NCBI RefSeq assembly: GCF_001646655.1
Contig: NZ_LPZN01000001.1
Coordinates: 1-64,000 of the forward strand
Source of the DNA: Rhodococcus gordoniae
GTDB taxonomy: Bacteria; Actinomycetota; Actinomycetes; Mycobacteriales; Mycobacteriaceae
Reading direction: 5' to 3'
Length of the DNA: 64,000 nt
The translations under genes were made by a program, and so were the position numbers. The notes beneath the pieces are model-generated. The model made no database searches, was not told where the DNA came from, and saw nothing but the letters and a program-made list of their open reading frames with translations. Position 1 is the first letter of the stretch. Each line of letters begins with the position of its first letter. Below are positions 40,512-63,368 of this stretch, one piece after another.

Positions 40512-40524
40512 GACAGGAGTTCGG

Positions 40525-44514: not shown

Positions 44515-44532
44515 CGCTTTCAACAATCCGTC

Positions 44533-45528
44533 TCAACTCACCCCGAGGAACCGCATTGCATTCTCGTGCTCGATCATGGCGCGGGCCTCGGGCGTCAGGA
44601 ACTCACTCTTACGAACCACGCTTCCCACCGGTCGCTCGCCGAGGGGATACGGATAGTCACTACCGACGAGTACCCGTTCGGAACCCATCGTATCGACGAG
44701 CAGTCGAAGGGCTCGCTCGTCGAATACGACGGAATCGACGTAGAACCGGTCCACATATTGGGAGGGTGGCTTGGCCGACGTGCCGATGATGTCGTGACGG
44801 CGGTGCCACGCGTTGTCGACGCGACCGAGCCAGAATGCGAAGGACCCACCGCCATGAGCGAACGCGATTCGCAGACCCTCGTCAATCCGGTCGAATCCTC
44901 CGCCCAGAATCAGCGAGAGAATCGACAAGTGGGTCTCGGCCGGCATTCCTGCGAGCCACTGGGCCATCCACCGGTCCAAGCGTGGCGAGTTTGCCATGTC
45001 CCACGGATGCACGAACACCGGAACCGACAGCGAGGCGCAGTGCTGCAGGAAGGTCACTATCCCATCGCTGTCGAGATCGCGATCACCGACGTGATTACCG
45101 ATCTCGACGCCGCGGTGCCCATTTTCGACACACCGTTCCAATTCGCGGCATGCGGCATCCGTGTCCTGCAGGGGGACTTGGCAGAACGGAATGAGCCGAT
45201 CCGGTGCCGGTTCGACGATCGTGAGAGCCAGGTCGTTGAAGATGCGCGCGATCCGCTCGGCTTCTTCGGGCGTACGTCCGTAATTGAAGAAAGCGGGGGT
45301 GGGGGAGACGACCTGTGCCCGGACACCGTCCGCATCCATGTCACGCAGTCGCACTTCGTAATCCCACGCATCGGACTGGATACGGCGGAACTCACGCGTA
45401 CCCATCATGATGATTGCGTCGGATTCGCTTTCGACCCGAAGCCACGGTGCGTCGACCCCGGCGTCGGCACTCAGGTCGGGCCACCCCTTCGGAACGTAAT
45501 GGGTGTGTACGTCGATGATGTCGCTCAT
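44533..45528 (-). CDS. 2-amino-3-carboxymuconate-6-semialdehyde decarboxylase (ACMSD-like)
   Basis: 331 residues from ATG 45528, behind GAAAGGGATGAC. Amidohydrolase-fold decarboxylase: metal His-x-His in IDVHTHYVP (His8, His10), a further His in FVHPWDMANSPRLDRW, His in IAFAHGGGSF and the catalytic Asp in LVGSDYPYPLGE. HPWDM and HGGGSF are typical of ACMSD. It converts the ring-cleavage product of 3-hydroxyanthranilate to 2-aminomuconate semialdehyde. The dioxygenase that makes its substrate is encoded one base upstream, which makes the assignment strong. Confidence 0.9.
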   Translation of the reverse strand: MSDIIDVHTHYVPKGWPDLSADAGVDAPWLRVESESDAIIMMGTREFRRIQSDAWDYEVRLRDMDADGVRAQVVSPTPAFFNYGRTPEEAERIARIFNDLALTIVEPAPDRLIPFCQVPLQDTDAACRELERCVENGHRGVEIGNHVGDRDLDSDGIVTFLQHCASLSVPVFVHPWDMANSPRLDRWMAQWLAGMPAETHLSILSLILGGGFDRIDEGLRIAFAHGGGSFAFWLGRVDNAWHRRHDIIGTSAKPPSQYVDRFYVDSVVFDERALRLLVDTMGSERVLVGSDYPYPLGERPVGSVVRKSEFLTPEARAMIEHENAMRFLGVS

Positions 45529-45529
45529 G

Positions 45530-46048
45530 TCATCCCTTTCCGGGATGCAGTGCGCCGCAGGTACTGCAGGTCCGCGCGGTCTCGTCGTTATAGAAATCGA
45601 CGAACACGGGCGGCAGGTCCGCAACGATGTCACGTACCTGCAGTTCGACTTCGTGGATGAGAGCATCGCACTCGAGGCAGTACCACTGGAACTTCTCTAG
45701 TGTTCCTTCGCGCCGTACACGCTCGATTACGAGTCCGATGCCTTCGGTGGGGCGCTGAGGCGAATGGGGGATGTTTCCGGGGAGCAGCCAGGATTCGCCC
45801 TCGCGAATGTGCACCGCGCGAGTGCCCTCCTCGGTCATGACATTGACGTGGATATCGCCTTCGATCTGGAAGAACCACTCCTCGTATGGATCCACGTGGT
45901 AGTCGGTGCGCTGGTTGGGACCACCGATGACCTGCACGATGAAGTCGTCCCCGAGAGCCATGGTCTGGTTGTTCACCGGCGGAGCGAGGAGGTGCCGGTT
46001 GTCGGCGATCCACTTGTGGAAGTCGATGACGGGCGGAATGGTTGTCAT
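45530..46048 (-). CDS. 3-hydroxyanthranilate 3,4-dioxygenase
   Basis: 172 residues, bacterial length. The catalytic iron ligands His51, Glu57 and His95 are exactly where the characterised enzyme has them (YHVDPYEEWFFQ, GNIPHSPQRP). A second, rubredoxin-like iron site is formed by Cys124, Cys127, Cys161 and Cys164 (CLEC, CSTC). Opens the ring of 3-hydroxyanthranilate to ACMS using O2. RQTD-type substrate arginine is present in NQRTDYH. Middle of a leftward operon. Confidence 0.95.
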   Translation of the reverse strand: MTTIPPVIDFHKWIADNRHLLAPPVNNQTMALGDDFIVQVIGGPNQRTDYHVDPYEEWFFQIEGDIHVNVMTEEGTRAVHIREGESWLLPGNIPHSPQRPTEGIGLVIERVRREGTLEKFQWYCLECDALIHEVELQVRDIVADLPPVFVDFYNDETARTCSTCGALHPGKG

Positions 46049-46064
46049 GGCGTTCTCTTTCGGT

Positions 46065-46493
46065 TCAGTGGTGACGGGCGCCAGGTAGATGGGCTACTGC
46101 TTGCATCTCGATGAGCAGGTGCGGATGGGGCAGCTGGTGCACTGCCACGGTCGTCCGTGTCGGGCCTGCTTCGTCGAGCATTTCGGCGTAAACCTCGTTG
46201 TATCCGCCAAAGTCGTTCATCGACACGAGGTAGGTAGTGACCTGGACGAGGTCGGTAAGGTCGGCTCCGACCTCCGCGAGAATTGCCTGGATATTGCTGA
46301 TAACCGCGCGCGTCTGGGCGCGGATATCGAGGCGTGTCGTGCCCATCTCGTCTACCTCGACACCTATGAAAGTGTTGTCGGGCCGACGAGAGCTGGTGCC
46401 GGAGACGTAAACGAAATCGCCGGCGACCTTGACGTGGGGGAACCTACCCCGAGGTGTGGCGAGCCCCTCGATCACTCGTGCGTTCCCGGTCAT
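46065..46493 (-). CDS. RidA-family 2-aminomuconate deaminase
   Basis: 142 residues. RidA/YjgF trimer fold: [20 protein letters not shown] at 18-37, [20 protein letters not shown] in the middle and [20 protein letters not shown] near the end; the latter replaces the usual RidA Arg motif, as in AmnD/NbaF-type deaminases. It would release ammonia from 2-aminomuconate to give 4-oxalocrotonate. Its ATG overlaps the stop of the upstream decarboxylase/hydratase gene (ATGA). Operon context makes the substrate likely. Confidence 0.85.
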
Positions 46494-47275
46494 GCGATTC
46501 CCTTCAGGCTCACGGTTCCCAAACCTTCCACTTCACATTCGACGCTGCCTGTCGTCAGCGGTGTTGCCGCAGTTGCGGCTCCGGCCAGCACCACATACCC
46601 GGCGCGCAACGGAATCTGCCGACGTCGTGCGATTTCCAACAACTCGCGGACGGCATTGGCCGGGTCGTCGAGGACAGCGTTCGTCGAGCCTTCCACGACG
46701 GTGCCGGATGTGGAGAGGCGGACAGCGCGATTGCTGACATCCTGCAGCGGATGCCACGGCCCGATGACGTAAGCTGCTGCGGAGGTGTTGTCCGCCACCA
46801 CGTCGGTGTAGGTGAAACGGAAATCCCGATACCGTGAATCGATGATCTCCATCGCGGGAGCGACAGCATCTACGTATGCGGCAATATTCGGCATAGGTCC
46901 GTCGAAGTCGATATCGGCGGAGATGCGGTACGCGATCTCGGGTTCGATCTTCGGGTGGATGAAGCGCGAGAGGTCTACGCTCTCGCCGTCGGCGACCTCC
47001 ATGGCGTCCGTGAGTCGCCCGACGATGATTTCCGATACGCCCATCTGGGCCATTTTCGCTCGGCTGGTGAAGCCGAGTTTGACGCCGACCAGATTCTCTC
47101 CCCGTGCACATCGACGGGCGACGAGTTCTTCCTGGATTGCGTAGGCGGCGTCGACGTCGATGTCGATGTCGTCTGCCAAGCTGTTCGTTTCGATGCGGTC
47201 CTGCTCAGCCGAGTCCAGGCGGGCGGCCAGCTCTGTGACAGTGTCCGTGGCCATGTTCATGTGGTTGTCCTTCAT
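46490..47275 (-). CDS. 4-oxalocrotonate decarboxylase / 2-oxopent-4-enoate hydratase family
   Basis: 261 residues. FAA-hydrolase-related fold: [20 protein letters not shown] near 65-84 (Lys and surrounding residues), then [16 protein letters not shown], whose Glu-x-Glu binds the metal, and [11 protein letters not shown] near 143. The HPKIEPE form is shared by the decarboxylase and hydratase. Because only one such gene is present, decarboxylase (the step after deaminase) is preferred, and the hydratase and aldolase must lie elsewhere. Several ATGs at the start (47275, 47260, 47254). Confidence 0.85.
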
Positions 47276-47288
47276 CGGTGATTCTCGG

Positions 47289-48764
47289 TCACAGTTGCAC
47301 GCAAACGTTGGTCGGTTCGGAATAGAAGTGGAGTGAGGACTCCCCCCCTTCTCGTCCGATCCCCGAGAGTCCCATCCCGCCGAACGGAGATCGAAGTTCG
47401 CGGGTGAACCAGGTGTTGACCCACGAGATGCCCACGTGCATCTTCTGGGCGACGCGGTGGCCTCGACGGAGGTCGTTCGTCCACACGGCTGATGCGAGCC
47501 CGTATTCCGTGTCGTTCGCGAGTGCGATCGCTTCGTCTTCGGTGTCGAACGGTACGAGTGCTGCCACGGGACCGAAAACCTCTTCTCGGAGTATGCGGTC
47601 GGTGTTCGTCAGCCCGGTCCACAGTGTCGGTTCGATCCAGGATCCGCCGTCGAGGTCCGGTCCGAGCTCGGGAATGCTGCCCCCGGTCAGTACCTTCGCT
47701 CCGGATTCCTCGGCGAGCCGGAGATACCCGAGGACCTTGTCCCGGTGCCCCTGGGAGATCAGCGGACCGGTCGTCGTGTTCGGATCGTTGGGGTCGCCGA
47801 GTCGAAGGCTCTCGGCGCGCTCGGCGAGTCCGGCCGCGATGTCGTCGAAGATCGCCCGGTGGACGTACACCCTCTCGGTGCACAGACACACCTGACCGGT
47901 ATTGGTGAAGATCGACTTTGCCAGCCCGGTCACTGCTTCGTCGATGTTCACATCGTCGAATACGATTGCGGCGTTCTTTCCGCCGAGTTCGAACGAGACC
48001 GGACGAACTCGGGGTGCGACCGTTTTCATCACGTGGGCACCGGTCGCTGACGATCCGGTGAAGGTGACACCGTCGATACCCGGATGGGTGGTCAGATATT
48101 CACCCGCCGAGTCGGCGCCGAAGCCGTGCACGACGTTGTAGGCACCGGCGGGCAGGCCGGCTTCGGCAAGTACCTCGGCGAGAAGCGTTGCTGTCGAGGG
48201 GGTCTCCTCGCTCGGTTTGACCACGATCGCATTGCCGCATGCGAGTGCGGGTGCGACCTTCCACGTCAGCAGGAGCAGTGGGAGATTCCACGGCACGATT
48301 ACGGCCACGACGCCGAGCGGCTTGCGGACAGCGTAATTGAGGGCTTGTCTTCCGCCTGCAAGATCGGTGAGGAAGGACTCCTGTCCGGCGGCTGCGACGA
48401 TGTCGGCGAAGGTGCGGAAATTCACGATCGCCCGAGTGACGTCCAGTTCTCGGGCCTGGGTGAGAGGCTTTCCGGTATCGGTCATTTCGGCGGCGACGAA
48501 CTCGTCGAACCGTTCTTCGATCCGATCGGCGACTCGACGTAGCAGCGCGGTGCGCTCTCGTACGGGAGTGTCGGCCCAGCCGCTGTCCAGTGCGTGGCGC
48601 GCCGCGGTGACCGCACGGTCGACGAGAGGGCGGTCTGCTTCGTGGACTCGGGCGACGATCCGGCCCGTCGAGGGGTCGATCTGATCGAACCCGCGTCGGG
48701 AATCGGGTTCGACGAATTCGCCGTCGACGAAATTGCGAATCCAACCGTCCTGGATGGGTTTCAT
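47289..48764 (-). CDS. 2-aminomuconate 6-semialdehyde dehydrogenase (ALDH family)
   Basis: 491 residues. All catalytic residues are present: Asn160 in VPWNLP, Lys183 in VVKPSEETP, Glu259 in SFELGGKN and Cys293 in GQVCLC, with VFGPVAALVPFD later. It resembles the AmnC/NbaE/ALDH8 group of hydroxymuconic or aminomuconic semialdehyde dehydrogenases and fills that step in this operon. First gene of the distal operon; ATG 48764 follows GAGGATTG. The LysR-type box lies 53-74 bases upstream. A degenerate relative is encoded at 51319. Confidence 0.9.
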   Translation of the reverse strand: MKPIQDGWIRNFVDGEFVEPDSRRGFDQIDPSTGRIVARVHEADRPLVDRAVTAARHALDSGWADTPVRERTALLRRVADRIEERFDEFVAAEMTDTGKPLTQARELDVTRAIVNFRTFADIVAAAGQESFLTDLAGGRQALNYAVRKPLGVVAVIVPWNLPLLLLTWKVAPALACGNAIVVKPSEETPSTATLLAEVLAEAGLPAGAYNVVHGFGADSAGEYLTTHPGIDGVTFTGSSATGAHVMKTVAPRVRPVSFELGGKNAAIVFDDVNIDEAVTGLAKSIFTNTGQVCLCTERVYVHRAIFDDIAAGLAERAESLRLGDPNDPNTTTGPLISQGHRDKVLGYLRLAEESGAKVLTGGSIPELGPDLDGGSWIEPTLWTGLTNTDRILREEVFGPVAALVPFDTEDEAIALANDTEYGLASAVWTNDLRRGHRVAQKMHVGISWVNTWFTRELRSPFGGMGLSGIGREGGESSLHFYSEPTNVCVQL

Positions 48765-48803
48765 GTTTCAATCCTCAGTTCTCGAACGATTACGGGCAAA
48801 TGC

Positions 48804-48838
48804 CAATCACGTGATTGCTATGCCCATCTTGTAATAGC
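48804..48838. promoter_or_regulatory. Regulatory region of the distal operon: palindrome plus LysR-type box
   Basis: CAATCACGTGATTG (48804-48817) is a perfect 14-bp palindrome. It abuts GCTAT (48817-48821), 12 bases, ATAGC (48834-48838); with flanks the arms are ATTGCTAT and ATAGCAAT. The second element shares TAT, CCA and TGTAATA with the box before the LysR gene at 61995-62016. Confidence 0.6.
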
Positions 48839-49090
48839 AATGGAGAGGGGCCGCAGCCTTTGCTCTTGTCGACGACTCGGCCGATCCGTTCTCCGAACAC
48901 AGAAGGCGCCCCGAACGAGGGCATCTCGGGTCCGACCGATGTCATCGACCGGGCACTCCGACACGGTGAGGAGGCGTCGTCACTGCAAATCGGTCCCGAG
49001 GACTCGGATGCGCTTGTGTCGGCGGCCCGGTTCATCTCGAAATCGGTTCCGGGACAGGGTGAACCTGTCACCGGAAGAAAGTTGCGTGCT
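48839..49090. other. Gap between the two island operons
   Basis: About 250 bases with no convincing gene. A weak plus-strand frame (48815-49156) and a weak minus-strand one (48790-49071) are open but have no ribosome site, no recognisable domain and unconvincing composition. The segment may hold a remnant of a lost gene. The upstream operon's transcript would have to cross it to reach the distal genes. Confidence 0.5.
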
Positions 49091-50035
49091 TCAGAGGACT
49101 ACGGCAGCGCGGCCGTTGACGTGCCCGCTCCTCAGGGCATCGAGAGCAGAGGGTAGTTCGTGCAGAGCGAACTCGTGCACGGGAAGCGCCAGTCGGCCCG
49201 AGGTGATCAGGTCACACATCATCGGGACGAGCGACGCTTGTTCCTCTCGTCGGCGCATCATGTTCAAGGGTAGTAGCGCCACGTCGTGCAGGAGGAAGTT
49301 GGGCAGGTCGAGGCTGACGGCTTCACCGCGTGTGTAGCCGATCAGGACTGCCCGACCTCCCGGCACGACGCCCCCGAGCAGGCTCGCCAGTTGTTGTCCG
49401 CCCACAGTATCGATGAGTACGTCGAACATCGGTTTCGATGCAAGACGATCCAGGACATCCGGAGACGACACGAGCGGCTCGACTCCCTGGGGGAGAGTTG
49501 CGGCCTTGGCGTGCGTCGAGACGAGTCCGGTGACACTCGCCGCGCCGGCATGGAGGGCGAACTGGCCGGATGCGGCGCCCACGGCACCCGACGCTCCGGT
49601 GACGAGCACCCGTTCGCCGGGTGTTATCCGAGCGACACCCGTGACCGCGAGGTAGCCGGAGGTGGAGGGGGAGAGGAAAGTGGCTGCTGCGGCTGGAGGT
49701 AGAGACCGGGGCAACTCCATGAGTGCGGTATCAGGGGCTGCCACGTACTCGGCCCAGCATCCGGGCCGGTCGACGCCCACCCCCCCGCCACGGACCAACA
49801 CGCGTACTCCCGGTTCGAATCGATCGGATTCGACGATGGTCCCGACTGCGTCGGTCCCCCCGATGTGGGGGAGGCGGGGCGGAACCGAGAATCGGCCCGA
49901 CGCGATGGTCACGTCCAGGTGGCCGACCGCGGCGGCCGCCACTTCGACCAGAGATTCGTTCGCTCCAGGGTGAGGGACTTCGGTCTGCTCGATCCGTGGG
50001 GACTGCCCGTAGCGGTGGAGTAGGGCGGCTCGCAT
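49091..50035 (-). CDS. Quinone-oxidoreductase-like medium-chain dehydrogenase
   Basis: About 314 residues from ATG 50035; the open frame runs to 50101 but would overlap the upstream gene. Zinc-free MDR of the QOR type: no Cys/His zinc ligands. The nucleotide motif is VLVTGASGAVGAASGQFALH near 128-147 (AxxGxxG form typical for NADPH quinone oxidoreductases). Ends HVNGRAAVVL. It may reduce an enone, quinone or enoyl intermediate in the island's upper pathway. Last gene of the proximal operon. Confidence 0.85.
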   Translation of the reverse strand: MRAALLHRYGQSPRIEQTEVPHPGANESLVEVAAAAVGHLDVTIASGRFSVPPRLPHIGGTDAVGTIVESDRFEPGVRVLVRGGGVGVDRPGCWAEYVAAPDTALMELPRSLPPAAAATFLSPSTSGYLAVTGVARITPGERVLVTGASGAVGAASGQFALHAGAASVTGLVSTHAKAATLPQGVEPLVSSPDVLDRLASKPMFDVLIDTVGGQQLASLLGGVVPGGRAVLIGYTRGEAVSLDLPNFLLHDVALLPLNMMRRREEQASLVPMMCDLITSGRLALPVHEFALHELPSALDALRSGHVNGRAAVVL

Positions 50036-50043
50036 GGAGTGCA

Positions 50044-50460
50044 CTATTTCAGCGTCAGTGCGACATCGACGTTGTTCCGGACTGCCTTGGAATACGGGCA
50101 CTTCTGATGTGCGCCCTCGACCACGGTGCGTGCAACGTCCTCGTCGACTCCGGGCATGTTCACCACGAGCTCGACCGAGAGACCGAACCCCTCACCGTGA
50201 TCCGCGATCGTGACTCGCGCGGTCACCGTGGGGTCGGTGAGCCGCACCTTGTGCACGCGCGCAACGGACGACAATGCCGACAGGAAACAACCGGCGTATC
50301 CGGCAGCGAAGAGTTGTTCCGGATTGGATCCGCCGCCGGCGCCCCCCAGTTCGACAGGGATGCCGAGAGCGACGTCGACCAGTCCGTCGTTCGAAGCGAC
50401 ACGGCCGTTTCGGCCGTTGCCGTCTGCGGTTGCCTCTGCGGTGTATTCCATCACAGTCAC
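50044..50460 (-). CDS. Ohr/OsmC-family peroxide reductase
   Basis: 138 residues. Reactive cysteines in AGYAGCFLSAL (about 58) and HQKCPYSKAVRNNV (about 122), with the Arg/Glu-bearing N-terminal segment of Ohr proteins and NPEQLFAAGYAGCF intact. Thiol-dependent reduction of organic hydroperoxides. Within a pathway that uses oxygenases or reactive aromatic amines it may protect against peroxides, or it may be recruited for another thiol reaction. Only one base separates it from the racemase-like gene. Confidence 0.9.
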   Translation of the reverse strand: MTVMEYTAEATADGNGRNGRVASNDGLVDVALGIPVELGGAGGGSNPEQLFAAGYAGCFLSALSSVARVHKVRLTDPTVTARVTIADHGEGFGLSVELVVNMPGVDEDVARTVVEGAHQKCPYSKAVRNNVDVALTLK

Positions 50461-50461
50461 T

Positions 50462-51256
50462 TCAGTTCCTTCCGATCAGAGTGAGAAGTTCTTCCACTGC
50501 ACGTGGAGTGGCTCGGGCGAATGTGCCTCCGCGCGAGACGGGTGTGCCGGTTGCCCGCGCAACGCTGACCGCGAGCTCTGCCTGTCGCACGGCGAGGTAG
50601 GTGGGATTGGCAACCATGGCGCCGTCCAACTGCAGGTCGGTGTCGGTGGCGCTCAGCAATGCGAACAATCCTCCTGCGGACATCACTACTTCGACGCCGC
50701 TCTCACGGACCATGGCCTGTGCCGCGTCGAGGAACATCTTTTTGATTGCGTCGTATCCGGCCGGATCATCGTATGCAGCTACTGCCTCGTCGGGGGTGAT
50801 CTGCATGCATCGGACGTCGACAACTCTCGATTCGAGTCCGTACCGACGAATCTGTTCGTGATGCCACGGGAGGTAGACGGGGTCGATGGAGACGATCCCG
50901 ACCCGTCCACCGAGCATGCATGCTTGATGCATGCTGGCTTCGCCGTGTCCGATGACCGGGATGTCGACGGCGGTCCGTGCCTCGAACAGGCCCGCGTCCT
51001 GGAAGTGCCCGACGAGTACCGCGTCGAACCCCTCCCGTTCCGCTTCGACGATGCCGGCGATGGACTGGACACTGCACCGTAGCTCACTCAGACGTCCCAG
51101 CTGAGTGTCTGCGGGGCTGATTCCGCGGACCTCGAACGAGACACCCGGTGCGGCGATCCCGGCAAGGTAGTCGGCCAGCCGAGAGAGATACGGCTGGTGG
51201 AGGGCCGGGTCCGTGTAGCTCTGATACAGAATACGTACGGGGGCGTGTGCTGACAT
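50462..51256 (-). CDS. Asp/Glu/hydantoin racemase-family protein
   Basis: 264 residues. Two-lobed racemase fold: VRILYQSYTDPALHQPYLSR at the start and DAVLVGHFQDAGLFEARTAV near 80-99. Cys near 112 lies in SMHQACMLGGRVGIVS. The second active-site Cys normally found in a xxGCxG segment reads EVVMSAGGLFALL here, so two-base racemisation looks impaired. Relatives include maleate isomerase and arylmalonate decarboxylase, which use one cysteine. It could isomerise or decarboxylate an acid in the upper pathway. Confidence 0.75.
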   Translation of the reverse strand: MSAHAPVRILYQSYTDPALHQPYLSRLADYLAGIAAPGVSFEVRGISPADTQLGRLSELRCSVQSIAGIVEAEREGFDAVLVGHFQDAGLFEARTAVDIPVIGHGEASMHQACMLGGRVGIVSIDPVYLPWHHEQIRRYGLESRVVDVRCMQITPDEAVAAYDDPAGYDAIKKMFLDAAQAMVRESGVEVVMSAGGLFALLSATDTDLQLDGAMVANPTYLAVRQAELAVSVARATGTPVSRGGTFARATPRAVEELLTLIGRN

Positions 51257-51318
51257 GGTGACTTCCTTTCTCTTTTGCCGAATCGGGAAGAGACCCTGGT
51301 GTTCCGGCGATCGGACGG

Positions 51319-52722: not shown

Positions 52723-52781
52723 TCGATTACCTCCTGCGAATGATGTGGACCTGGTGAGTCGCTGATGTGGACGAGTGACCG

Positions 52782-54380: not shown

Positions 54381-54397
54381 TGGATGTAGGTTTCCTT

Positions 54398-54706
54398 TCA
54401 CTGCAGACCGGGGGTACGGGCCGGCACGAAACCGGCCGGATCGGCACCGTCGGTGATCGTGTGGTTCAGTGCCACCACCGCGCCGGGACGCAGGTCGGTC
54501 GGCGTCAATCGGGCGATGACGCACAGGCGCGGCCCGCACCGTACGGTGCCGATGGCCACGTCGGCGGCGGTCCGGACCACATCCTCGACGGTGCCGGAAT
54601 CGATCTCGACGTCGGCGAAACTCGCTTCCCCGCATGCGGGACAGACGAGGCGATACGGGAAATAGTGTTCGCCGCAGTTCCGGCAGGACTGAACGATGAT
54701 GCTCAT
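54398..54706 (-). CDS. DUF35 zinc-ribbon/OB-fold partner of the thiolase
   Basis: 102 residues. N-terminal rubredoxin-like zinc ribbon: CRNCGEHYFPYRLVCPACG with Cys at about 8, 11, 22 and 25. The OB fold follows (GTVEDVVRTAADVAIGTVRC and on). DUF35 proteins sit beside SCP2-type thiolases and acyl-CoA binding enzymes and form complexes with them, shuttling acyl-CoA. It overlaps the thiolase stop by 4 bases, supporting a physical complex. Confidence 0.9.
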   Translation of the reverse strand: MSIIVQSCRNCGEHYFPYRLVCPACGEASFADVEIDSGTVEDVVRTAADVAIGTVRCGPRLCVIARLTPTDLRPGAVVALNHTITDGADPAGFVPARTPGLQ

Positions 54707-55851: not shown

Positions 55852-55916
55852 AATGATGTCCTTGCTTGTGGATCGACGTGATGAGGTGACGTGATGAAGT
55901 GAGGAAGCCGGCGCAG

Positions 55917-56876
55917 TTACAGCGATCGATACATTTTGTCGGCGCTGAACGATTCCTTGACGATGCCCACTTCCACCATGAGGTCGATCACGGATTGGAC
56001 GTCCTCGGCGTCGTACTCGGTGACGTACTCCGGCAGATTCATGTTTCGCGCGGTGTCCTCGTCCATGTCCGAGAACCGAGGCAGCGTTTCTGCAGCTACT
56101 GCGTGAGGATCGAGCTCGATGTCTTCGACGGCCCTTGCAAGCGCCGCGCGGAAGGCACGAATGGCGTCGGGATTGGTTTCGATCACTTTCTCCGACGTGG
56201 CGAAGAGACCCTGCGGGCCGTTCTGGTATGCGATGGAGCGCAGATCGACGGTCTCGAGGGCGGAACTCAGTGTCGGCTCGGTGATGAATGCCGCGTCGAC
56301 GTCGCCGGCTGCAAGGGCGGTAGCCATGTTCGCCTGAGGAAGCTCGACGAAGTCGACCTGGTTGTAATCCAAACCTTCGGAGAGGAGAACGCCTCGGAGG
56401 AAGATGTCGCCCACGGATCCGAGGGAGGGGGTAGCGACCTTCTTGCCCAGCAGGTCTGCTGCCGTGGCGGCGGAGGAATCACTCCGTACGTAGATGCCGC
56501 CCTTGTAATCGTCTGTTCCATCGATGCCTGTTGCAGCGATCGTGACGGGCAGACCGGAGTCGACTGCTTTGATGATCGACGGGTAGGACACCAGCGCGAG
56601 GTCGGTGCTGCCGGAGATCAACGCATTGATCGTAGTCGCCCCGTTGGCTGCCGGGGTCAGTTCGATCTCGAGATCGTTGTCTGCGAAGTAGCCCTTCATC
56701 TGGGCGACGTACACCGGCAGAGAATCTCCGACGGGAGGGATGGACAGCGTCATGCGGGTGATGCCGTCTTCGGAGGGGGCCCCGGAGGAGGAGGTCTCGC
56801 CCCCGCAGGCGGCGACGGTGCCGGCCAGTGCGAGGGTGGCCACGGCCGCGCACACTCGTGCGAATCGTGTCTTCAT
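55917..56876 (-). CDS. ABC importer substrate-binding lipoprotein (NMT1/SsuA-like)
   Basis: About 319 residues from ATG 56876. Signal peptide ARVCAAVATLALAGTVAACG with lipobox VAAC near residue 22. The NMT1/SsuA fold shows in YVAQMKGYFADNDLEIELTP and ATTINALISGSTDLALVSY, followed by the second-lobe PSLGSVGDIFLRGVLLSEGL. Relatives bind taurine, alkyl sulfonates, aromatic carboxylates, pyrimidines or riboflavin. With the island's enzymes an aromatic or heteroaromatic acid is likely. Confidence 0.9.
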   Translation of the reverse strand: MKTRFARVCAAVATLALAGTVAACGGETSSSGAPSEDGITRMTLSIPPVGDSLPVYVAQMKGYFADNDLEIELTPAANGATTINALISGSTDLALVSYPSIIKAVDSGLPVTIAATGIDGTDDYKGGIYVRSDSSAATAADLLGKKVATPSLGSVGDIFLRGVLLSEGLDYNQVDFVELPQANMATALAAGDVDAAFITEPTLSSALETVDLRSIAYQNGPQGLFATSEKVIETNPDAIRAFRAALARAVEDIELDPHAVAAETLPRFSDMDEDTARNMNLPEYVTEYDAEDVQSVIDLMVEVGIVKESFSADKMYRSL

Positions 56877-56926
56877 GTGTTCTCCAGGTTCCGGTCGAGG
56901 GGGGAACTTCGGGGGGTGTGACGGGC

Positions 56927-57721
56927 TCAGACTTCGACGTGCAGGCCGCCGGGACACGCTTGCCGGATGAGGCGGGCGACTTCGCCGCGGGTGGTGACGA
57001 ACAGTTCCTCTTCGCGAGTGCGGATCTGGTCGCGGGGGAAATCGAGCGGGATACGCAGGTCCGCGGTCTTGACTGTCGGTGCTTTGCTCAGCGAGACGAC
57101 CCGAGTGCTCAGGTAGACGCTCTCGTCGACGTCATGCGTGACGAACAGGATCGTCATGTCGTATCGATCGCGTACCCGTAGGAGAAGGTCTTCGAGGTCC
57201 GATCGTGTCTGGGCGTCGACGGATGCGAACGGTTCGTCCATCAGTAGCAGTTTCGGCTGCATCGCGAGAGCCCGGGCGATTGCGACACGTTGCTGCATAC
57301 CGCCGGACAGTTGCCACGGGTAGCGTTCCTCCATTCCCTCGAGTCCGACGGCGGCGAGGGATTCGGCTGTGCGGGCGCGTCGTTCGGATTTTCCGACGAT
57401 TCCGAGCAGGGGGAATTCGACGTTGGCTCCAACTCTTCGCCAGGGAAACAGTGAAGCGCGGTAGTCCTGGAAGACCATCGCGAGTCCTTCGGGAACGCCG
57501 TCGATCACCCGTCCTCCGAGTGAGATGGTGCCGCCTGTCGGTTTGAGGAGGCCGGAGAGGGTGCGCAGGAGAGTGGTCTTGCCGCAGCCCGACGGTCCGA
57601 CGATCGAGACGAACTCGCCGTCGTCGACCGAGAACGACAGCCCGTTCAGGACACGCTGTTCACCGCGGTCGGTGTGGTAGGTGTGGCTGAGGTTATCGAC
57701 CTCGAGCAATGCGTTAGCCAT
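56927..57721 (-). CDS. ABC importer ATPase (SsuB/TauB-like)
   Basis: 264 residues. Walker [10 protein letters not shown] near 40-48, signature [15 protein letters not shown] near 138-152, Walker [11 protein letters not shown] near 158-167 and switch His in [29 protein letters not shown] is the Q-loop region typical of the nitrate/sulfonate/taurine group. Runs with two permeases upstream and the binding protein downstream in one leftward operon. Confidence 0.93.
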
Positions 57722-57734
57722 GTTTGTGTTCCGA

Positions 57735-58556
57735 TCAGTTGTCGATGGCCATGCGAAGGCGGTGCCAGTCCAGGAGGGAATGCTCGATACGTACGAGCAG
57801 GAGGTTGGACAGATAGCCGAGGAGCGAGAGGGCGACGATGTAGGACCACATCGTCAAGAACTCGAACGAGCGCTGTGCTTGGGACAGACCGAAACCGATG
57901 CCGTCCGACGCAGCGTAGAGTTCCGATGCGATCAGCAGGATGATACCGAGTGATGTCGACACTTTGATGCCGGCGAAGATGCCCGTGCTCGCCGAGGGCA
58001 GGATCACCCGGAACAGCATTCCTGTCCGGCTGATGCGGGTCGATCGTGCGGCGTCCTCGAATCCTTCGGGTACCTGGCGTACGGCGCTGTACGTGTTGAA
58101 CAGGACGGGCCAGATCGCGCCGAAGGTGATCAGGCCGATCCTCATCGCGGAACCGGTTCCTATCAGCACCAGGGCCAGGGGTAGGAGAACCGGGCCGGGC
58201 AGGCCGCGCATGAAATGTAGAAGGGGTTCGATGGTCATCGCCAGCACGGGAATCCGGCCGAGAAGTACTCCCAAGGTGATGCCCACTACCCATGCGATCG
58301 CCAATCCGACCAGGAGCCGTCCGATGCTGGGAAGGATGTCGGAGTAGAACGAGTCGGTGAGGATGCCGTGTGACAATCCCGCGGAGAACCAACGGTCGTA
58401 GACGTTGCCGAAGATGTCGATCGGCGTGGGGAAGTACGGGGATCGGGCACTGGCAGCCCCCAGTTGCCAGACGAGAAGAAGTACGGCGGCCGCAGTCCAT
58501 CCGAGTGCCGCATTCGACCATCGGGAGACAGTGGTCGAACTCAGTGTGGTCGTCAT
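57735..58556 (-). CDS. ABC importer permease (SsuC-like), second of two
   Basis: 273 residues, about six spans. The coupling loop VPEGFEDAARSTRISRTGML near 160-180 matches the EAA motif of SsuC/TauC. Only moderately similar to the 281-residue permease just upstream, so the channel is probably a heterodimer; most SsuC-type systems encode one permease. Overlaps the upstream permease by 4 bases. Confidence 0.9.
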   Translation of the reverse strand: MTTTLSSTTVSRWSNAALGWTAAAVLLLVWQLGAASARSPYFPTPIDIFGNVYDRWFSAGLSHGILTDSFYSDILPSIGRLLVGLAIAWVVGITLGVLLGRIPVLAMTIEPLLHFMRGLPGPVLLPLALVLIGTGSAMRIGLITFGAIWPVLFNTYSAVRQVPEGFEDAARSTRISRTGMLFRVILPSASTGIFAGIKVSTSLGIILLIASELYAASDGIGFGLSQAQRSFEFLTMWSYIVALSLLGYLSNLLLVRIEHSLLDWHRLRMAIDN

Positions 58557-59398
58557 CCTTCATCCCTTCGTGCCCAGGACGCGTACTTCGTTTCGAGGAC
58601 GCTCACGATTGCATTGATGACCAGGCCCAAGAGGCCGGCGATGATGACACCGGCGCAGACGGAGTCGATGCCCTGAGGCAGCATGCTCTGTAGTAGGAGC
58701 CACGAGCCCAGACCGGTGGTGCTTCCGCCGATGAACTCGGCGCCGATGCAGAGGATCAGGGCGATGGATACTGTTACGCGCACACCCGTGAGTACGGACG
58801 GGACGGCCGATGGCCATACCACTCGATATGCCACGAGCGCGGGGGACCACCCGAAGGATCGGGCGGTGGCTCGTGCGACACCATTGGTCGAGTGAACACC
58901 GTGGATGGTATTCACTAGCAACGGAAATACGCAGCCGAGAGCCACGACTGCGGACTTCATCTCCAAGCCTTGTCCCGCCACCAGGACGAGGAGAGGTACC
59001 AGACCGATAGGGGGCAAAGGTCGTACCAGCTCGACGATGGTCGAGGTAGCAGCGTAGACGCGATTTGAAAGGCCGAGGAGCAGTCCGAGAGGCACCGCGA
59101 TGAACAGTGCGATGGCGTATCCGACGAGCGCCGCCCAGAGGGTGTAACCGATCTGCGTCAGAAAGGCGGGGTCGGTGAGCAGTTCGGCGGCCCGCGCCAA
59201 GGTCGTCGATGCGGGGGGGAGTGCGTCACGGGGGAGCAGGTGCAGGCGGGCGACGAGTTCCCAGAGTGTGAGGAAACCGAGCACTCCGATCGTGCCCCAG
59301 AACAGATGGGTGAGGTTCGTCCTGCGGAGGAAGCGGTCCTGCGAGGACGTACTGAGTGTCACCGGCAGAGTAGGGGTGATCTCCGTCGTGCTGGTCAC
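58553..59398 (-). CDS. ABC importer permease (SsuC-like), first of two
   Basis: 281 residues with an N-terminal tail, then LFWGTIGVLGFLTLWELVAR and five further spans. The EAA-like loop GVARATARSFGWSPALVAYR lies near 170-190. IVELVRPLPPIGLVPLLVLV is the region typical of the nitrate/sulfonate permeases. Forms the membrane part of the importer with the next gene's product. Confidence 0.9.
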   Translation of the reverse strand: MTSTTEITPTLPVTLSTSSQDRFLRRTNLTHLFWGTIGVLGFLTLWELVARLHLLPRDALPPASTTLARAAELLTDPAFLTQIGYTLWAALVGYAIALFIAVPLGLLLGLSNRVYAATSTIVELVRPLPPIGLVPLLVLVAGQGLEMKSAVVALGCVFPLLVNTIHGVHSTNGVARATARSFGWSPALVAYRVVWPSAVPSVLTGVRVTVSIALILCIGAEFIGGSTTGLGSWLLLQSMLPQGIDSVCAGVIIAGLLGLVINAIVSVLETKYASWARRDEG

Positions 59399-59483
59399 TG
59401 GGTGCCCCCTGAATATCGTGGTGAAATGGGTGGGAGGGCGTGCTGTCCCTCCTCGATGACGCGTCTCATCGCATCGGTTCCGC

Positions 59484-61127
59484 TCAGTGACCGAATGCTT
59501 CTTGGAGCCACCATGAGCCCTCCCGAGAGACGATCTTGGCGTCGATTACGAGCGGGCGGTCGGGATCTGCTGCAAGCCAGGATTCGACGGGGTGCAGGTC
59601 GGTCACATTCCGGACGGTGGCCGCCTCGCAGCCGTAGCCGCGTGCGATCGCAGCGATGTCGGTGTCGGGGAATGTCACCGAGTCGAGAGGCGGTCCGTCC
59701 GTTCCGAAGTGGTGAACCTCAGCGCCGTACATGGAGTCGTTGTATACGACGACGAGCAGCGGAAGCTTCAGTCGAACTGCAGTTTCCAACTCGGAGATGC
59801 CCATGAGGAATCCGCCGTCTCCGCACGCCACGACGGGCAGACGATGAGGTTGTGCCAGTGCCGCACCCAACCCGGTTGCAAGGCCGAGTCCGACCGACTG
59901 GAATGCCTGGGTGAAGCAGAATCCGTACTCGTCGGGCACATCGAGGTACATGCTCGGGTAGCCGAGGAAGTTCCCGGAGTCCACGGACACGATCCGCTCG
60001 GTCGGGAGCATGGTGTTCAACGTGGCCGACAGGGTTCGAGGATCGATGAGTCCATCACCGGATTCGTCGTCGAACGCAACCTGGTTCCACCGCAGCCCTG
60101 TTTCGATGCGGCTCTTGACCTCGGCGGTGCGGTAGCCCTCACGATGAGTCATACCCTTCGCCTCGAGCCATGCCGACGTGGCCTCGGCGGTTTCGGCAAC
60201 CCCGCCGAACAATCCGAGCGTGACGTCGCGGTGCCGGCCGATCGCGGTGGGGTTCGTGTCGACCTGTACGACGGAAGCGTCTTCTGCGATCAGCTTGCCG
60301 TGTCGCATCGTCCACATGTTGAGGGCGCAACCGAACCCGACAATGAGGTCGGCACCTGCGATCAGCTCGGCGGTGAGGGGGGAGCTGAAGCCACCCGAGA
60401 CGTCGATGCTCCACGGGTCGTCATTGAACATCCCTCGGGCGACTGCTGAAGTGGCTACCAGGGCGCCGGCCTGCTCGGCCAGCACCTGGACGGCTTCCTT
60501 GGACCCGCGAGATCGGCTGCCGCGACCGGCCACGAAGACCGGCCTTTCGGCAGAGAGGATGAGCTCAGCGAACCGTGCAACCTCGTCCGATGCGGGCTGG
60601 GGCGCGGCGGCACGAACGTAGGTGCGCTTTGCGGTGTTGCCCTGAAAGAGCATGTCCTGCACGTCCAGCGGAACGTTGAGCACGACGGTGCGCTGACCGT
60701 CCCGGCACAGATTGAAAGCGCGTGTGACGTCGTCCAATGCGGTCAACGGGGACCGGACACGCATCGACACTGCGCCGACACCGTTGCCGATTCCTTCCTG
60801 ATCGATGAAGAAGTTCGAGGTCGGTTCGGTGGCCTCGGCCGTCAGGACCAGCAGGGGAGTGTTGCTCTTCGCCGCCTCTGCGATCCCGGTGATCGCGTTG
60901 GTGTAACCGCAGCCCTGATGCAGGGACAGCACTCCGACCTCACCCGACATGCGCGCGTACGCATCGGCCATCGTGGCGGCACCGCCTTCGTGGCGGGCTG
61001 CGACGAAGCGGGCGCCCCGTTCGATCATGGCATTGGTGAAGTGGAAGTTTCCGCTACCCACGACTCCGAAGACCGTGGACACGCCCATGTCTGCGAGGGC
61101 GTACCCGATTGCGTCTCTTACCAGCAT
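59484..61127 (-). CDS. Thiamine-diphosphate-dependent decarboxylase/lyase (benzoylformate decarboxylase type)
   Basis: 547 residues. N-terminal Pyr domain: GVVGSGNFHFTNAMIERGAR, then ARHEGGAATMADAYAR with the catalytic Glu near 48. The C-terminal PP domain has GDGGFLMGISELETAVRLKL, the Mg-ThDP motif, with the Asn/Asp-rich VVYNDSMYGAEVHHFG after it. No large insertions, so it is nearer to benzoylformate decarboxylase and acetolactate-synthase-like lyases than to oxidoreductases. Beside a ring-opening cyclase gene, it could decarboxylate a 2-aminophenylglyoxylate-type acid. Substrate unproven. Confidence 0.85.
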   Translation of the reverse strand: MLVRDAIGYALADMGVSTVFGVVGSGNFHFTNAMIERGARFVAARHEGGAATMADAYARMSGEVGVLSLHQGCGYTNAITGIAEAAKSNTPLLVLTAEATEPTSNFFIDQEGIGNGVGAVSMRVRSPLTALDDVTRAFNLCRDGQRTVVLNVPLDVQDMLFQGNTAKRTYVRAAAPQPASDEVARFAELILSAERPVFVAGRGSRSRGSKEAVQVLAEQAGALVATSAVARGMFNDDPWSIDVSGGFSSPLTAELIAGADLIVGFGCALNMWTMRHGKLIAEDASVVQVDTNPTAIGRHRDVTLGLFGGVAETAEATSAWLEAKGMTHREGYRTAEVKSRIETGLRWNQVAFDDESGDGLIDPRTLSATLNTMLPTERIVSVDSGNFLGYPSMYLDVPDEYGFCFTQAFQSVGLGLATGLGAALAQPHRLPVVACGDGGFLMGISELETAVRLKLPLLVVVYNDSMYGAEVHHFGTDGPPLDSVTFPDTDIAAIARGYGCEAATVRNVTDLHPVESWLAADPDRPLVIDAKIVSREGSWWLQEAFGH

Positions 61128-61129
61128 TG

Positions 61130-61942
61130 TTATTCGGTCTCCTTCGATGTTTCGCCTTCGATCAGTGCGAGGATGCGCGCTGGGCTCCCAGAGCCTCCGA
61201 CGATGCGCAGCGGGGCGACAACGAGGAGGGTGCCGACCGGTGGCAGTCGGTCGAGATTCTGCAACTGGGTGATTCCGTACTTACCGGCTCCCAACAGGAA
61301 CGAATGCACGGGGAACTCCGGCTCGAACCGGAAGGCCTGACCCGCATCGGTGCCGACCGTCTCGACCCCCAGTCCGATGATCGGGGCTTCGTTGGCAAGC
61401 CATTCCGCGCAAGCGGGCGTCACGCCCGGTGTGTGGGGGCCGTTGTCATCGGCATTGATGAAGCGTTCCTGGTGTTGGGATCGAGCAGACCAGCCGGTTC
61501 GGAAAAGTAGCCAGCCTGCGGGCAGGGGGCCGAACTCTTCCTGCCACTGCATCACGTCATCGATATCGAGAAGGAAGTCCGGATTCTCGGCAACTTCGGC
61601 AGTCTTGTCTATCACCACCGCCGGCGCAACAAGCCTGTCGACCGGTACGGAGGCGACGTCACCGTGGGCCACACCCGTGATCCAGTGGCAGGGCGCGTCG
61701 AAATGGGTCCCTACGTGCTCACCGGTGTGAATACCGTTCTGATAGGAAGTCGGACCCCTGTCGTCGTATCTGGCCAACTCCTCCAGTTCGAAACGGGGGA
61801 TCGGAGCCATGCCCTCGGGCAGTGGGAGAACCGGCGTCGACGACGACAACGGTGCGGTCAAGTCGAGTACCCGAATGTCGGAGCGAGCCAACGAAAGCGC
61901 TACAGCGGCCAGTGCGCTCGGGGAAGTGGACGAGAAGCTCAT
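61130..61942 (-). CDS. Cyclase-family metal hydrolase (isatin hydrolase/kynurenine formamidase type)
   Basis: About 270 residues from ATG 61942; the frame is open to 61978 only through a TTG. The family metal motif H-x-G-T-H-x-D-x-P-x-H is seen as HVGTHFDAPCHW, preceded by GIHTGE. FRTGWSARS and the late GVETVGTDAGQAF are further family blocks. The family includes isatin hydrolase and KynB, which open or hydrolyse N-acyl anilines and lactams. First gene of the proximal operon, two bases from the ThDP enzyme, and divergent from the LysR gene. Confidence 0.85.
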   Translation of the reverse strand: MSFSSTSPSALAAVALSLARSDIRVLDLTAPLSSSTPVLPLPEGMAPIPRFELEELARYDDRGPTSYQNGIHTGEHVGTHFDAPCHWITGVAHGDVASVPVDRLVAPAVVIDKTAEVAENPDFLLDIDDVMQWQEEFGPLPAGWLLFRTGWSARSQHQERFINADDNGPHTPGVTPACAEWLANEAPIIGLGVETVGTDAGQAFRFEPEFPVHSFLLGAGKYGITQLQNLDRLPPVGTLLVVAPLRIVGGSGSPARILALIEGETSKETE

Positions 61943-61994
61943 GGACTGATCATGCGAGAGGAGCCAGAGCAAAACCAATGCTAAAGTGCGTTCC

Positions 61995-62016
61995 GGTATA
62001 TCCAGGGTGTAATACC
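61995..62016. promoter_or_regulatory. LysR-type box in the divergent promoter of the island
   Basis: GGTAT (61995-61999), 12 bases, ATACC (62012-62016); the arms extend to CGGTAT/ATACCG. The spacer shares CCA and TGTA with the box before the distal operon. It lies 44-65 bases before the LysR start, between it and the cyclase gene. Confidence 0.6.
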
Positions 62017-62059
62017 GATCACATAATGTTTCGTCAATGTTTCAGAGGAATGACAAGGG

Positions 62060-63022
62060 ATGAATCCACAACGCATGTTCGACGGGCGCCTCAAGATTCG
62101 GCACTTGATTCTCCTGACGACGCTGGCCGACGAGGGCAGTATGGTTCGTGCGGCGGAGGTCCTCCGCGTCACTCAACCCGCCATCACCCGTGCCGTACGT
62201 GAGGCCGAAGATGTACTGTCGGCGACGCTCTTCGAACGAAAGCCGCGAGGGGTGGCGCCGACAGAACTCGGCGAGATATTCCTCGAGAGCGCGCGGACGG
62301 CTTTGAACTCGCTGCGCGCCGCCGCCGAGAGCATCGACGAGATGCAACGGGTCGGTGTGCGCCCGGTACGGGTGGGCACCAATCTGGCCGGTGCGTACTC
62401 GTTGTTGCCACAGGCCCTTGTGGCACTCAAACGTGATCACCCCAAGTTGTCGGTTTCGGTCATCGAAGAATTGCCGGAAGATCTGGCTACCTGTCTCGCG
62501 CGGGACGAGATCGACCTGGTCGTGGGTCGGCTCGACCCGCAGGGGTACAGCACTGCCACCCACAGCATTCGCCTGTACGACGAACCCGTTCGCGCAGTGG
62601 TGAGGCGAGGGCACCCCGCCGCCGATCTCGAGAACCCCGATATTCGCGACTTGCTGGATTATCCGTGGATCCTGCCGGCTCGGCCGACCCAACTACGGCA
62701 TGAACTGGACGAACTGTTCGCACGCGAAGGGCTGGGCTTGCCTCAGAACATCATCGAGTGCTCGACGATTCTCACCCTCCGGCCGATTCTGATCAGCACC
62801 GATGCGATCGCACCGCTACCGATGTTGATCGGGGCGCGCGACGAGCACCTCACGCTACTACCGACCTCTCTCGCGACTGTTCCGCGCTCGATCGGTATCA
62901 CGATGCCTTCGGATCGCTCATTGAGTGCCAGCGCGCGGAGCTTGATCGATGTATTGATCAGCACAGCAAGGATTATCGCCCGGGACAACGTTCTCGATGT
63001 CAACCGAGTGCTCTCGGCCTGA
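62060..63022 (+). CDS. LysR-family regulator of the catabolic island
   Basis: 320 residues. The winged helix is IRHLILLTTLADEGSMVRAA, then TQPAITRAVREAEDVLSATL. The effector-binding domain starts near 95 (VRPVRVGTNLAGAYSLLPQA). GRLDPQGYSTATHSIRLYDE and the C-terminal ILISTDAIAPLPMLIG fit the GbpR/PcaQ-like branch that responds to aromatic-pathway intermediates. Divergent from the proximal operon, and its presumed box is repeated before the distal operon, so it most likely activates both. Confidence 0.92.
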   Translation: MNPQRMFDGRLKIRHLILLTTLADEGSMVRAAEVLRVTQPAITRAVREAEDVLSATLFERKPRGVAPTELGEIFLESARTALNSLRAAAESIDEMQRVGVRPVRVGTNLAGAYSLLPQALVALKRDHPKLSVSVIEELPEDLATCLARDEIDLVVGRLDPQGYSTATHSIRLYDEPVRAVVRRGHPAADLENPDIRDLLDYPWILPARPTQLRHELDELFAREGLGLPQNIIECSTILTLRPILISTDAIAPLPMLIGARDEHLTLLPTSLATVPRSIGITMPSDRSLSASARSLIDVLISTARIIARDNVLDVNRVLSA

Positions 63023-63341: not shown

Positions 63342-63368
63342 CACTGCATCCGAAATGGGAGCGATCAC

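Follow-up and report, generated by a model that had tools for sequence, protein, structure and literature searches.

The closest described counterpart of the system reported here is the iad route of auxin degradation, for which a CoA synthetase (IadF), a "thiolase" (IadG), a dehydrogenase (IadH) and a cyclase (IadI) are proposed (PMC9613470; PMC12633357, a preprint). According to the accessible parts of both sources, the proposed path leads from C10H9NO4 (dioxindole-3-acetate) through C8H7NO2, C8H7NO3 and C7H7NO to anthranilate, and the last four of these were detected. The present analysis concerns a 64,000-nt stretch of Rhodococcus gordoniae DNA (GCF_001646655.1, contig NZ_LPZN01000001.1, positions 1–64,000; hereafter the window), which holds a catabolic gene island. 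Its upper gene set parallels the second half (isatin branch) of the iad route, without the Rieske oxygenase, and its lower set belongs to the meta-cleavage of 3-hydroxyanthranilate (3-HAA). In the initial annotation of this DNA, the upper pathway was considered unrecognised. The set of ligase, thiolase-fold protein, DUF35-type protein, cyclase and thiamine diphosphate (ThDP)-dependent enzyme is not wholly so, as an iad-like second half is already known. A characterized cluster with the same gene set and a known substrate was not found in the open-licence literature searched. Overall, the original observation was confirmed, while its interpretation was partly supported.

In our judgment there is an even chance that the island serves the uptake of a 2-amino-3-hydroxyphenyl compound and its funnelling into 3-HAA meta-cleavage through a variant of the isatin branch, with a 7-hydroxylated oxindole- or dioxindole-3-acetate as the likeliest substrate. 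3-HAA is anthranilate with a hydroxyl group at the carbon equivalent to indole C7, and for this reason a 7-hydroxylated substrate is proposed. The compound would be imported by the ATP-binding cassette (ABC) transporter and converted to its CoA ester by the ligase. The thiolase-fold protein and its DUF35 partner would then cleave the resulting β-hydroxyacyl-CoA by a retro-aldol reaction to 7-hydroxyisatin and acetyl-CoA; acting on a dioxindole-3-acetyl-CoA, such a retro-aldolase would yield an isatin and acetyl-CoA directly. Ring opening by the cyclase would give 2-amino-3-hydroxyphenylglyoxylate, ThDP-dependent decarboxylation would give 2-amino-3-hydroxybenzaldehyde, and oxidation to 3-HAA would be carried out by some dehydrogenase, none being assigned in the island. 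The final stage, proposed on the basis of the established 3-HAA pathway, would proceed through 3-hydroxyanthranilate 3,4-dioxygenase (HAO), 2-amino-3-carboxymuconate-6-semialdehyde decarboxylase (ACMSD), semialdehyde dehydrogenase, RidA and DmpH-like steps. The chemistry of the upper route appears plausible, and the substrate is put forward as a hypothesis. A compound of the required kind, 7-hydroxy-2-oxindole-3-acetic acid (7-hydroxy-oxIAA), is made by maize from auxin (PMC9458244, PMC8329485, as far as accessible), and no bacterium tied to it was found in the accessible open-licence literature.

The island is a discrete, sharply bounded insertion of about 19.1 kb at 44112–63246, located between an allantoicase gene (43145–44113) and a gene for a xanthine/uracil-type permease (63446 onward). 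In the alignment, relatives at loci L154 and L155 (L numbers denote loci, G numbers genomes) matched window positions 43001–44111 and resumed at 63247 and 63249, respectively, with about 7–9 bases in between. Compared with the empty site of L154, the insert corresponds to 44112–63246; the presence of an island was thus correctly annotated, while its bounds had been set too narrowly, at 44533–63022 (18.5 kb). The allantoicase locus was recovered in 15 of 18 genomes of the genus and was occupied by the island in three (the window's own, G111 and G123). In nine of the other twelve, the same permease as at window 63446 immediately follows the allantoicase, and in three no permease match was present within the fetched stretch. 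Four of the 18 genomes encode the cyclase (E 1e-60 or better). One genome with an empty site at the allantoicase, G223, has a divergent form of the cluster at another position.

The 2-kb blocks spanning 44001–64000 have a G+C content of 0.617–0.645, lower than the approximately 0.65–0.73 of the flanking blocks. Close copies of the cluster are present in G111 and G123. Identity between G111 and the window was 97–100% per kb over 42–73 kb and fell to 81–96% in the outer blocks, which suggests recent exchange. In G123 (L014), the racemase gene (~5.7–7.4 kb) is interrupted by a ~1.35-kb insert with a transposase-like frame, which we take to be of IS256 type, and matches to the ThDP gene (~16.1–17.8 kb) fall into two frames, so that the pathway looks to be decaying in this genome. 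The island has purine genes as neighbours: those for allantoicase and a DUF6986 protein at 40267–44113, and the permease gene at the opposite end.

Between 61942 and 44533, eighteen genes are encoded on the minus strand, and a LysR gene at 62060–63022 runs divergently from them; all genes named in the initial annotation were recovered by profile matches in this arrangement. The upper set comprises, in order, the cyclase, the ThDP enzyme, two ABC permeases, an ABC ATPase, an NMT1-type binding protein, the thiolase-fold protein, the DUF35-type protein, an acyl-CoA ligase, an aldehyde-dehydrogenase (ALDH)-like protein, a racemase-like protein, an OsmC/Ohr protein and a QOR-like reductase. After a gap of 326 bp, the lower set follows with the semialdehyde dehydrogenase, the DmpH-like decarboxylase, RidA, HAO and the ACMSD-like amidohydrolase.

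HAO (45530–46048; PF06052, 2.3e-51) is the sole match of its kind in the genome and passed both curated models, with 254 bits for NF009763 (cut-off 220) and 211 for TIGR03037 (cut-off 146). The 2-aminomuconate/2-hydroxymuconate semialdehyde dehydrogenase (47289–48764) reached 768 bits for TIGR03216 (cut-off 693) and retains the catalytic Glu and Cys in alignment (FELGGKN, GQVCLC). The DmpH-like 4-oxalocrotonate decarboxylase (46490–47275) is related to TIGR03218 without being an equivalog match (2.4e-58; 197.6 bits, cut-off 350.55), and a DmpG-type aldolase domain is encoded on another contig. The remaining two products are a RidA-family protein, probably 2-aminomuconate deaminase (46065–46493; PF01042, 3.7e-26), and an amidohydrolase, probably ACMSD (44533–45534; PF04909, Amidohydro_2, 1.8e-37), whose start is uncertain, the open frame extending to 45666. 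By family, the lower operon would accordingly cover five steps of 3-HAA meta-cleavage, as annotated; intactness of the active sites, also claimed, was borne out by aligned residues for the dehydrogenase, the other four assignments resting on family matches.

The annotated lack of a kynurenine-type source of 3-HAA agrees with the whole-genome search, in which neither kynureninase nor tryptophan dioxygenase gave a match (the search did not extend to kynurenine monooxygenase or NbaA/NbaB). A kynurenine origin of 3-HAA was rejected on the grounds of the two missing enzymes.

The cyclase (61130–61942, minus strand) belongs to the isatin hydrolase family, and its best PDB relatives are characterized isatin hydrolases (5nmp, 7.7e-79; 5nna, 2.2e-66; 4j0n, 1.7e-65). 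Kynurenine formamidase was rejected as its identity, the score for TIGR03035 being 24.8 against a cut-off of 223. For the isatin hydrolase LaIHA, the accessible text of PMC6117287 names the metal and catalytic residues and places Trp59, Trp61 and others of the pocket against the product isatinate. The metal and catalytic residues are kept in the window protein as His76, His80, Asp82, His86 and His213 (aligned to LaIHA His69, His73, Asp75, His79 and His207). Trp59 and Trp61 are replaced by Ser66 and Gln68, and the signature reads GITQ where isatin hydrolases have GLQC or GLAS. Because of this signature, the protein was filed as a relative of isatin hydrolases and not as an isatin hydrolase.

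Thirty cyclases were aligned, leaving out repeats (L001–L008, L052, L059, L061) and matches below 60% coverage; among the rows, those of the window, L011 and L014 are three near-copies. The Ser/Gln pocket with G[IVL]TQ was observed in 15 of the 30. HAO was present in the fetched DNA for 11 of these, just beyond it in two (L045 and L046, 0.4–0.5 kb past the end), at a fitting position in one (L040, ~2 kb beyond the fetched DNA, contig not matched by name) and missing in one (L044). The other 15 cyclases comprised ten with Trp-Trp (5 GLQC, 3 GLAS, 1 GLTQ, 1 GLTS) and five with Trp-His, and HAO was present in the fetched DNA of only one of them, Arthrobacter mobilis L033. In the tree, the Ser/Gln cyclases form one clade (support 100/97), which points to one evolutionary event spread over several families and not to 15 independent ones.

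The adjoining ThDP-dependent enzyme (59484–61127, minus strand; PF02776/PF00205/PF02775), a candidate (hydroxy)isatinate decarboxylase, has E47, H70 and GDG invariant in 6/6 rows. Its nearest PDB chains are BbmA, followed by 2-hydroxyacyl-CoA lyase; a search of open-licence papers on BbmA returned nothing. At locus L082 (14155–17881), a cyclase of the isatin hydrolase family lies beside a TPP_enzyme_C/DUF6537 pair, presumably indolepyruvate-oxidoreductase-like, which may be a different ThDP partner for possibly the same kind of step.

The altered cyclase pocket and GITQ would also suit another N-aromatic compound with a 2-amino-3-hydroxyphenyl core, such as one of the 8-hydroxyquinoline or quinolone type or an N-acyl amide. 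In this case, the cyclase would open a different lactam and the ThDP enzyme would act on another 2-oxo acid. We regard this as unlikely, though deserving of some weight. The Burkholderia and Caballeronia clusters speak for it: there the path to HAO involves SDR, dienelactone-hydrolase-like and TrpC-like genes (by the domains of L106), which implies that the ligase/thiolase-fold pair can serve a substrate whose breakdown need not include isatin. On the other hand, the nearest characterized cyclases are isatin hydrolases, the kynurenine formamidase score is far below its cut-off, and 3-hydroxyoxindole-3-acetate is the simplest explanation of the combined ligase, aldolase, cyclase and ThDP enzyme.

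It is likewise unlikely that the product of the upper operon is plain anthranilate, derived from dioxindole-3-acetate or isatin, and that an unlinked hydroxylase converts this anthranilate to 3-HAA. The accessible literature offers some grounds for such a route: the upper set is iad-like and iad yields anthranilate (PMC9613470, PMC12633357), hydroxylation of anthranilate to 3-HAA has been reported (PMC6221969), and unsubstituted isatin is the substrate of those isatin hydrolases that match best. However, the HAO-linked clade replaces the stacking Trp pair and the signature, whereas W-W/GLQC is retained in the cluster cyclases of Roseibium (L031) and Agrobacterium (L030). Moreover, the linked clusters share no recurrent hydroxylase family (the genome was not searched for anthranilate hydroxylases).

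The Roseibium and Agrobacterium clusters are both plasmid-borne. In Roseibium, MarR, Rieske, ligase, thiolase-fold, SDR and cyclase genes occur together. The island ligase (52782–54362, minus strand; AMP-forming acyl-CoA ligase, NF004808 819.5 bits, cut-off 722), thiolase-fold protein and cyclase show 33%, 40% and 45% identity, respectively, to proteins of this cluster. The likeness to IadF, IadG and IadI is drawn from family matches and the Roseibium comparison, not from the Variovorax proteins themselves. The Agrobacterium pusense cluster holds relatives of the racemase-like protein, cyclase, SDR, thiolase-fold protein, Ohr, QOR-like reductase and ThDP enzyme; near this cluster, on pR76, lies a gene annotated as trpC.

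At the window locus, the adjoining regulator is of LysR and not MarR type. The single Ring_hydroxyl_A match of the genome lies on another contig, with 33% identity to the Rieske alpha subunit of the Roseibium cluster; it is presumably a benzoate dioxygenase. Indole-3-acetic acid itself, entering through a Rieske IadDE enzyme, was rejected as the substrate since this sole alpha-subunit match is distant.

Retro-aldolases with a thiolase fold are known in Sal and Ltp2, which cut β-hydroxyacyl-CoA esters with the Tyr of YDCY or YDHF as the catalytic base and work with a DUF35 partner (PMC12329534, in its accessible part). The thiolase-fold protein of the island (54703–55851, minus strand) carries Y278-D279-D280-Y281 in the corresponding motif, and YDDY was present in 90/90 aligned rows. 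In the same 90/90 rows, the position of the nucleophilic Cys of thiolases is Gly and that of the His in GHP reads GQ. A Cys three positions before the nucleophile site occurs in 37 rows, including those of Burkholderiales (CHGGAS and the like), while the true thiolases 7yvy and 6esq align with Cys at the nucleophile position itself. The AlphaFold model (mean pLDDT 85, pTM 0.90) gave the Sal-Shy(DUF35) aldolase as Foldseek rank 1 and Ltp2-ChsH2(DUF35) as ranks 2–3, and sequence comparison likewise put Sal first. As the VIA-align Z values of Sal/Ltp2 and true thiolases are tied, fold comparison alone fails to separate aldolase from thiolase, and the case for an aldolase rests on the residues.

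The partner protein (54398–54706, minus strand; PF12172, zf-ChsH2, 3e-8) is of DUF35 type with a ChsH2-like zinc ribbon C-x2-C-x10-C-x2-C, and the four zinc finger Cys are retained in the 34 aligned rows. Judged by its residues, the "thiolase" is probably a retro-aldolase, and the thiolase cleavage originally annotated is probably a retro-aldol step. True thiolysis, in which 2-amino-3-hydroxybenzoylacetyl-CoA would give 3-hydroxyanthraniloyl-CoA and acetyl-CoA, is quite improbable in view of the invariant Gly and Gln and of both rankings.

The thiolase-fold family was also observed in other surroundings. Seven Paraburkholderia loci (L085, L086, L094, L096, L097, L105, L107) carry a Rieske alpha subunit with 55–58% identity to that of the Roseibium cluster; the family therefore also sits in likely auxin-degradation loci. 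At L017 (G205; 3.9–14.8 kb), a 59% identical thiolase-fold protein occurs with DUF35, ligase and MFS genes near two bicupin genes, which we take to be gentisate-dioxygenase-like, and a dienelactone-hydrolase-like gene. There, the same cleavage module is joined to another lower pathway.

That the two operons form one functional unit feeding 3-HAA, as initially proposed, is well supported by their co-occurrence. The search across actinobacteria suggested in the annotation recovered both sets together in Rhodococcus, Gordonia, Streptomyces, Nocardioides and Nonomuraea, with varying orders, inversions and transporters; in Rhodococcus sp. JCM 9791 (G223, L052) and Gordonia sp. "Campus" (G129, L061), an MFS transporter replaces the ABC genes. 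In a sample of 251 genomes of the family, the thiolase-fold protein (E 1e-60 or better) was found in 7 and a strong HAO in 34 (41 matches minus 7 weak ones, E 1e-6 or worse). Six genomes had both, side by side in five; in the sixth, Gordonia aichiensis (G211), HAO lies on another contig. A strong HAO was thus present in 6/7 thiolase-positive genomes versus 28/244 others (Fisher test, p 2.6e-5, kinship ignored).

When named genomes were scanned using the thiolase-fold protein, 80 loci were kept of 105 relatives, and HAO lay within 12 of these loci. These belong to Arthrobacter mobilis, Nocardioides zeae, Nocardioides luteus, Streptomyces antibioticus, Ruicaihuangia caeni, Nonomuraea soli, Rhodococcus, Gordonia, three Caballeronia and one Burkholderia cenocepacia. 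Both the cyclase and the ThDP enzyme (>45% identity) were present at 15 loci, seven of which hold HAO. Six changes of the HAO label are required on the thiolase tree, five of them forced by starred branches, and the Burkholderiales group is separate from the actinobacterial groups. HAO matches were also found elsewhere in the genomes of L036, L082 and L060, whose clusters have no linked HAO or another pocket.

It is very improbable that the two operons are mere neighbours with unrelated substrates: the 326-bp gap, the inverted lower set of Rhodococcus erythropolis R138 (plasmid pLRE138), which an additional LysR gene separates from the upper set, and the HAO outside cluster L044 would fit this, but the linkage is retained in five genera with differing orders, the upper operon of Gordonia G129 additionally holds hydratase-, acetaldehyde-dehydrogenase- and aldolase-type genes, and two Nonomuraea have HAO embedded among upper genes.

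In Burkholderia and Caballeronia (L101, L106, L110, L111; ~6.8–21 kb), runs of genes encode the ligase, thiolase-fold protein, semialdehyde dehydrogenase, RidA, HAO, an ACMSD-like protein and two DmpH-family proteins. The run in L106 also holds MFS, SDR, dienelactone-hydrolase-like, porin and indole-3-glycerol-phosphate-synthase (TrpC) homologues.

When the proposed route from a 7-hydroxylated (di)oxindole-3-acetate through 7-hydroxyisatin to 3-HAA is weighed, several observations count against it. Judging from the residues, isatin itself may not be the substrate of the cyclase, as GITQ replaces GLQC/GLAS, and the association of the pocket with HAO goes back to a single clade and one event. 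Of the acid residues of the known aldolases (Tyr344 in Ltp2, Cys304 in Sal), Cys304 is replaced by Asp280, and the Ltp2 Tyr344 position is Gln in Sal. The Asp of YDDY, at the His/Cys position of Ltp2/Sal, is a putative acid. A dedicated aldehyde dehydrogenase for the oxidation to 3-HAA is lacking, the local ALDH paralogue having no catalytic Cys.

No oxygenase for the C3 or C7 hydroxyl group was found in the island, and no oxygenase family recurs near the linked clusters (14 genomes; similarity clustering, not full annotation), so that the substrate must either come in already hydroxylated or be a product of unlinked genes. The maize compound is described as a glucoside, yet a glycosidase was not noticed, and none was shared by the linked clusters in the clustering of unassigned frames (15 loci, 14 genomes; domain search partial).

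The exceptions to the linkage also count here. Arthrobacter mobilis L033 has HAO although its pocket differs. In Nonomuraea sp. PA05 (L044), the Ser/Gln pocket, the whole upper set and the dehydrogenase are present, but HAO is missing from the place that it takes in L043; the genome holds two HAO matches, both on other contigs. The cyclase gave no match in Ruicaihuangia caeni L042, where HAO, ligase, ABC and ThDP genes are all present. In 4/4 Burkholderiales loci, the ligase and thiolase-fold protein are joined to HAO with no cyclase or ThDP match.

The same clustering of unassigned frames, from which the window, G111 and G123 were excluded, gave MFS, DmpG/DmpF-like and IclR-like genes, a metallo-beta-lactamase-fold/MFS pair, a QOR-like gene and antisense frames. 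The pair of metallo-beta-lactamase-fold hydrolase and MFS gene (L026:665–2953, L046:15398–17979) is common to R138 and three Streptomyces clusters.

The remaining upper genes all lie on the minus strand. The protein annotated as performing a racemase-like step (50462–51256; PF01177, 1.3e-22) has the Asp/Glu/hydantoin-racemase fold, but in 12/12 rows the two catalytic Cys are replaced by His and Ala; 3qvj has Cys at both positions. A hydantoin-type racemase step was rejected because both residues are absent. The ALDH-like gene (51319–52722; PF00171, 2.5e-68), which was missing from the initial list of upper genes, adjoins the ligase gene, and its product has Asp in place of the catalytic Cys (GQSD in the window, GQHD in R138, L026:14576–16018); it is probably not a working aldehyde dehydrogenase. 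The OsmC/Ohr organic-hydroperoxide reductase (50044–50460; PF02566, 1.9e-17) has relatives in R138 and the Agrobacterium cluster and, speculatively, might reduce a 3-hydroperoxyoxindole formed by air oxidation.

The set also includes the MDR/QOR-like reductase (49091–50041; PF08240/PF00107), the NMT1-type ABC substrate-binding protein (55917–56882; PF09084, 2.6e-34), the ABC ATPase (56927–57721; PF00005) and the two ABC permeases (57735–58556 and 58553–59398; both PF00528). On the plus strand, the regulator (62060–63022; PF03466/PF00126) is of LysR type and PcaQ-like, with TIGR02424 at 5.9e-53, below the cut-off.

Tentatively, and as a possibility we hold to be somewhat short of probable, the island would be the first recognised bacterial route for ring-hydroxylated plant auxin waste. 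7-Hydroxy-(di)oxindole-3-acetate would be cut by a thiolase-fold retro-aldolase of a new YDDY class, 7-hydroxyisatin would be opened by a re-pocketed isatin hydrolase, the products would enter 3-HAA meta-cleavage, and IadG would by homology be a retro-aldolase as well. If so, actinobacteria, some of them plant-associated, would own a dedicated use of plant auxin breakdown products, and the turnover of a plant hormone would be linked to the supply of carbon and nitrogen to bacteria. The least understood step of iad, removal of the side chain by a thiolase-fold enzyme without thiolase residues, would gain a mechanism, and two pocket residues would separate enzymes for hydroxylated and plain isatin. 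Among the test compounds first suggested, isatins were a good guess; nothing was found pointing to benzoxazinones, at which no search was aimed.

When compared with known systems, the island shares HAO, the ACMSD-like protein, the semialdehyde dehydrogenase, RidA and the DmpH-like protein with the 3-HAA meta-cleavage pathway (nba/onb 2-nitrobenzoate and kynurenine lower routes). Unlike in the kynurenine route, 3-HAA would arise here without kynureninase, from an upper module dependent on CoA and ThDP. With the isatin hydrolases LaIHA, LaIHB and RsIHA, the cyclase shares the fold family, metal ligands and catalytic His, whereas the two pocket Trp and the GLQC/GLAS signature are changed to Ser66/Gln68 and GITQ. 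Ltp2-ChsH2 and Sal-Shy have in common with the island pair a thiolase fold without the thiolase Cys, the Tyr of the YD motif and a DUF35 partner with a C4 zinc finger (as in ChsH2), and Sal likewise has Gln in place of the thiolase His. They differ in the motif (YDHF/YDCY versus YDDY) and in the substrate, a steroid as opposed to a presumed oxindole.

The iad locus of the Variovorax/Bradyrhizobium type shares the CoA synthetase, the thiolase-fold enzyme, the isatin-hydrolase-like cyclase and isatin-type intermediates. In contrast to it, the island has no Rieske IadCDE, is adjoined by a LysR instead of a MarR regulator and encodes a separate ThDP enzyme. Its cyclase pocket is changed, genes for 3-HAA ring cleavage are attached, and the linked genes point to 3-HAA, not to anthranilate.

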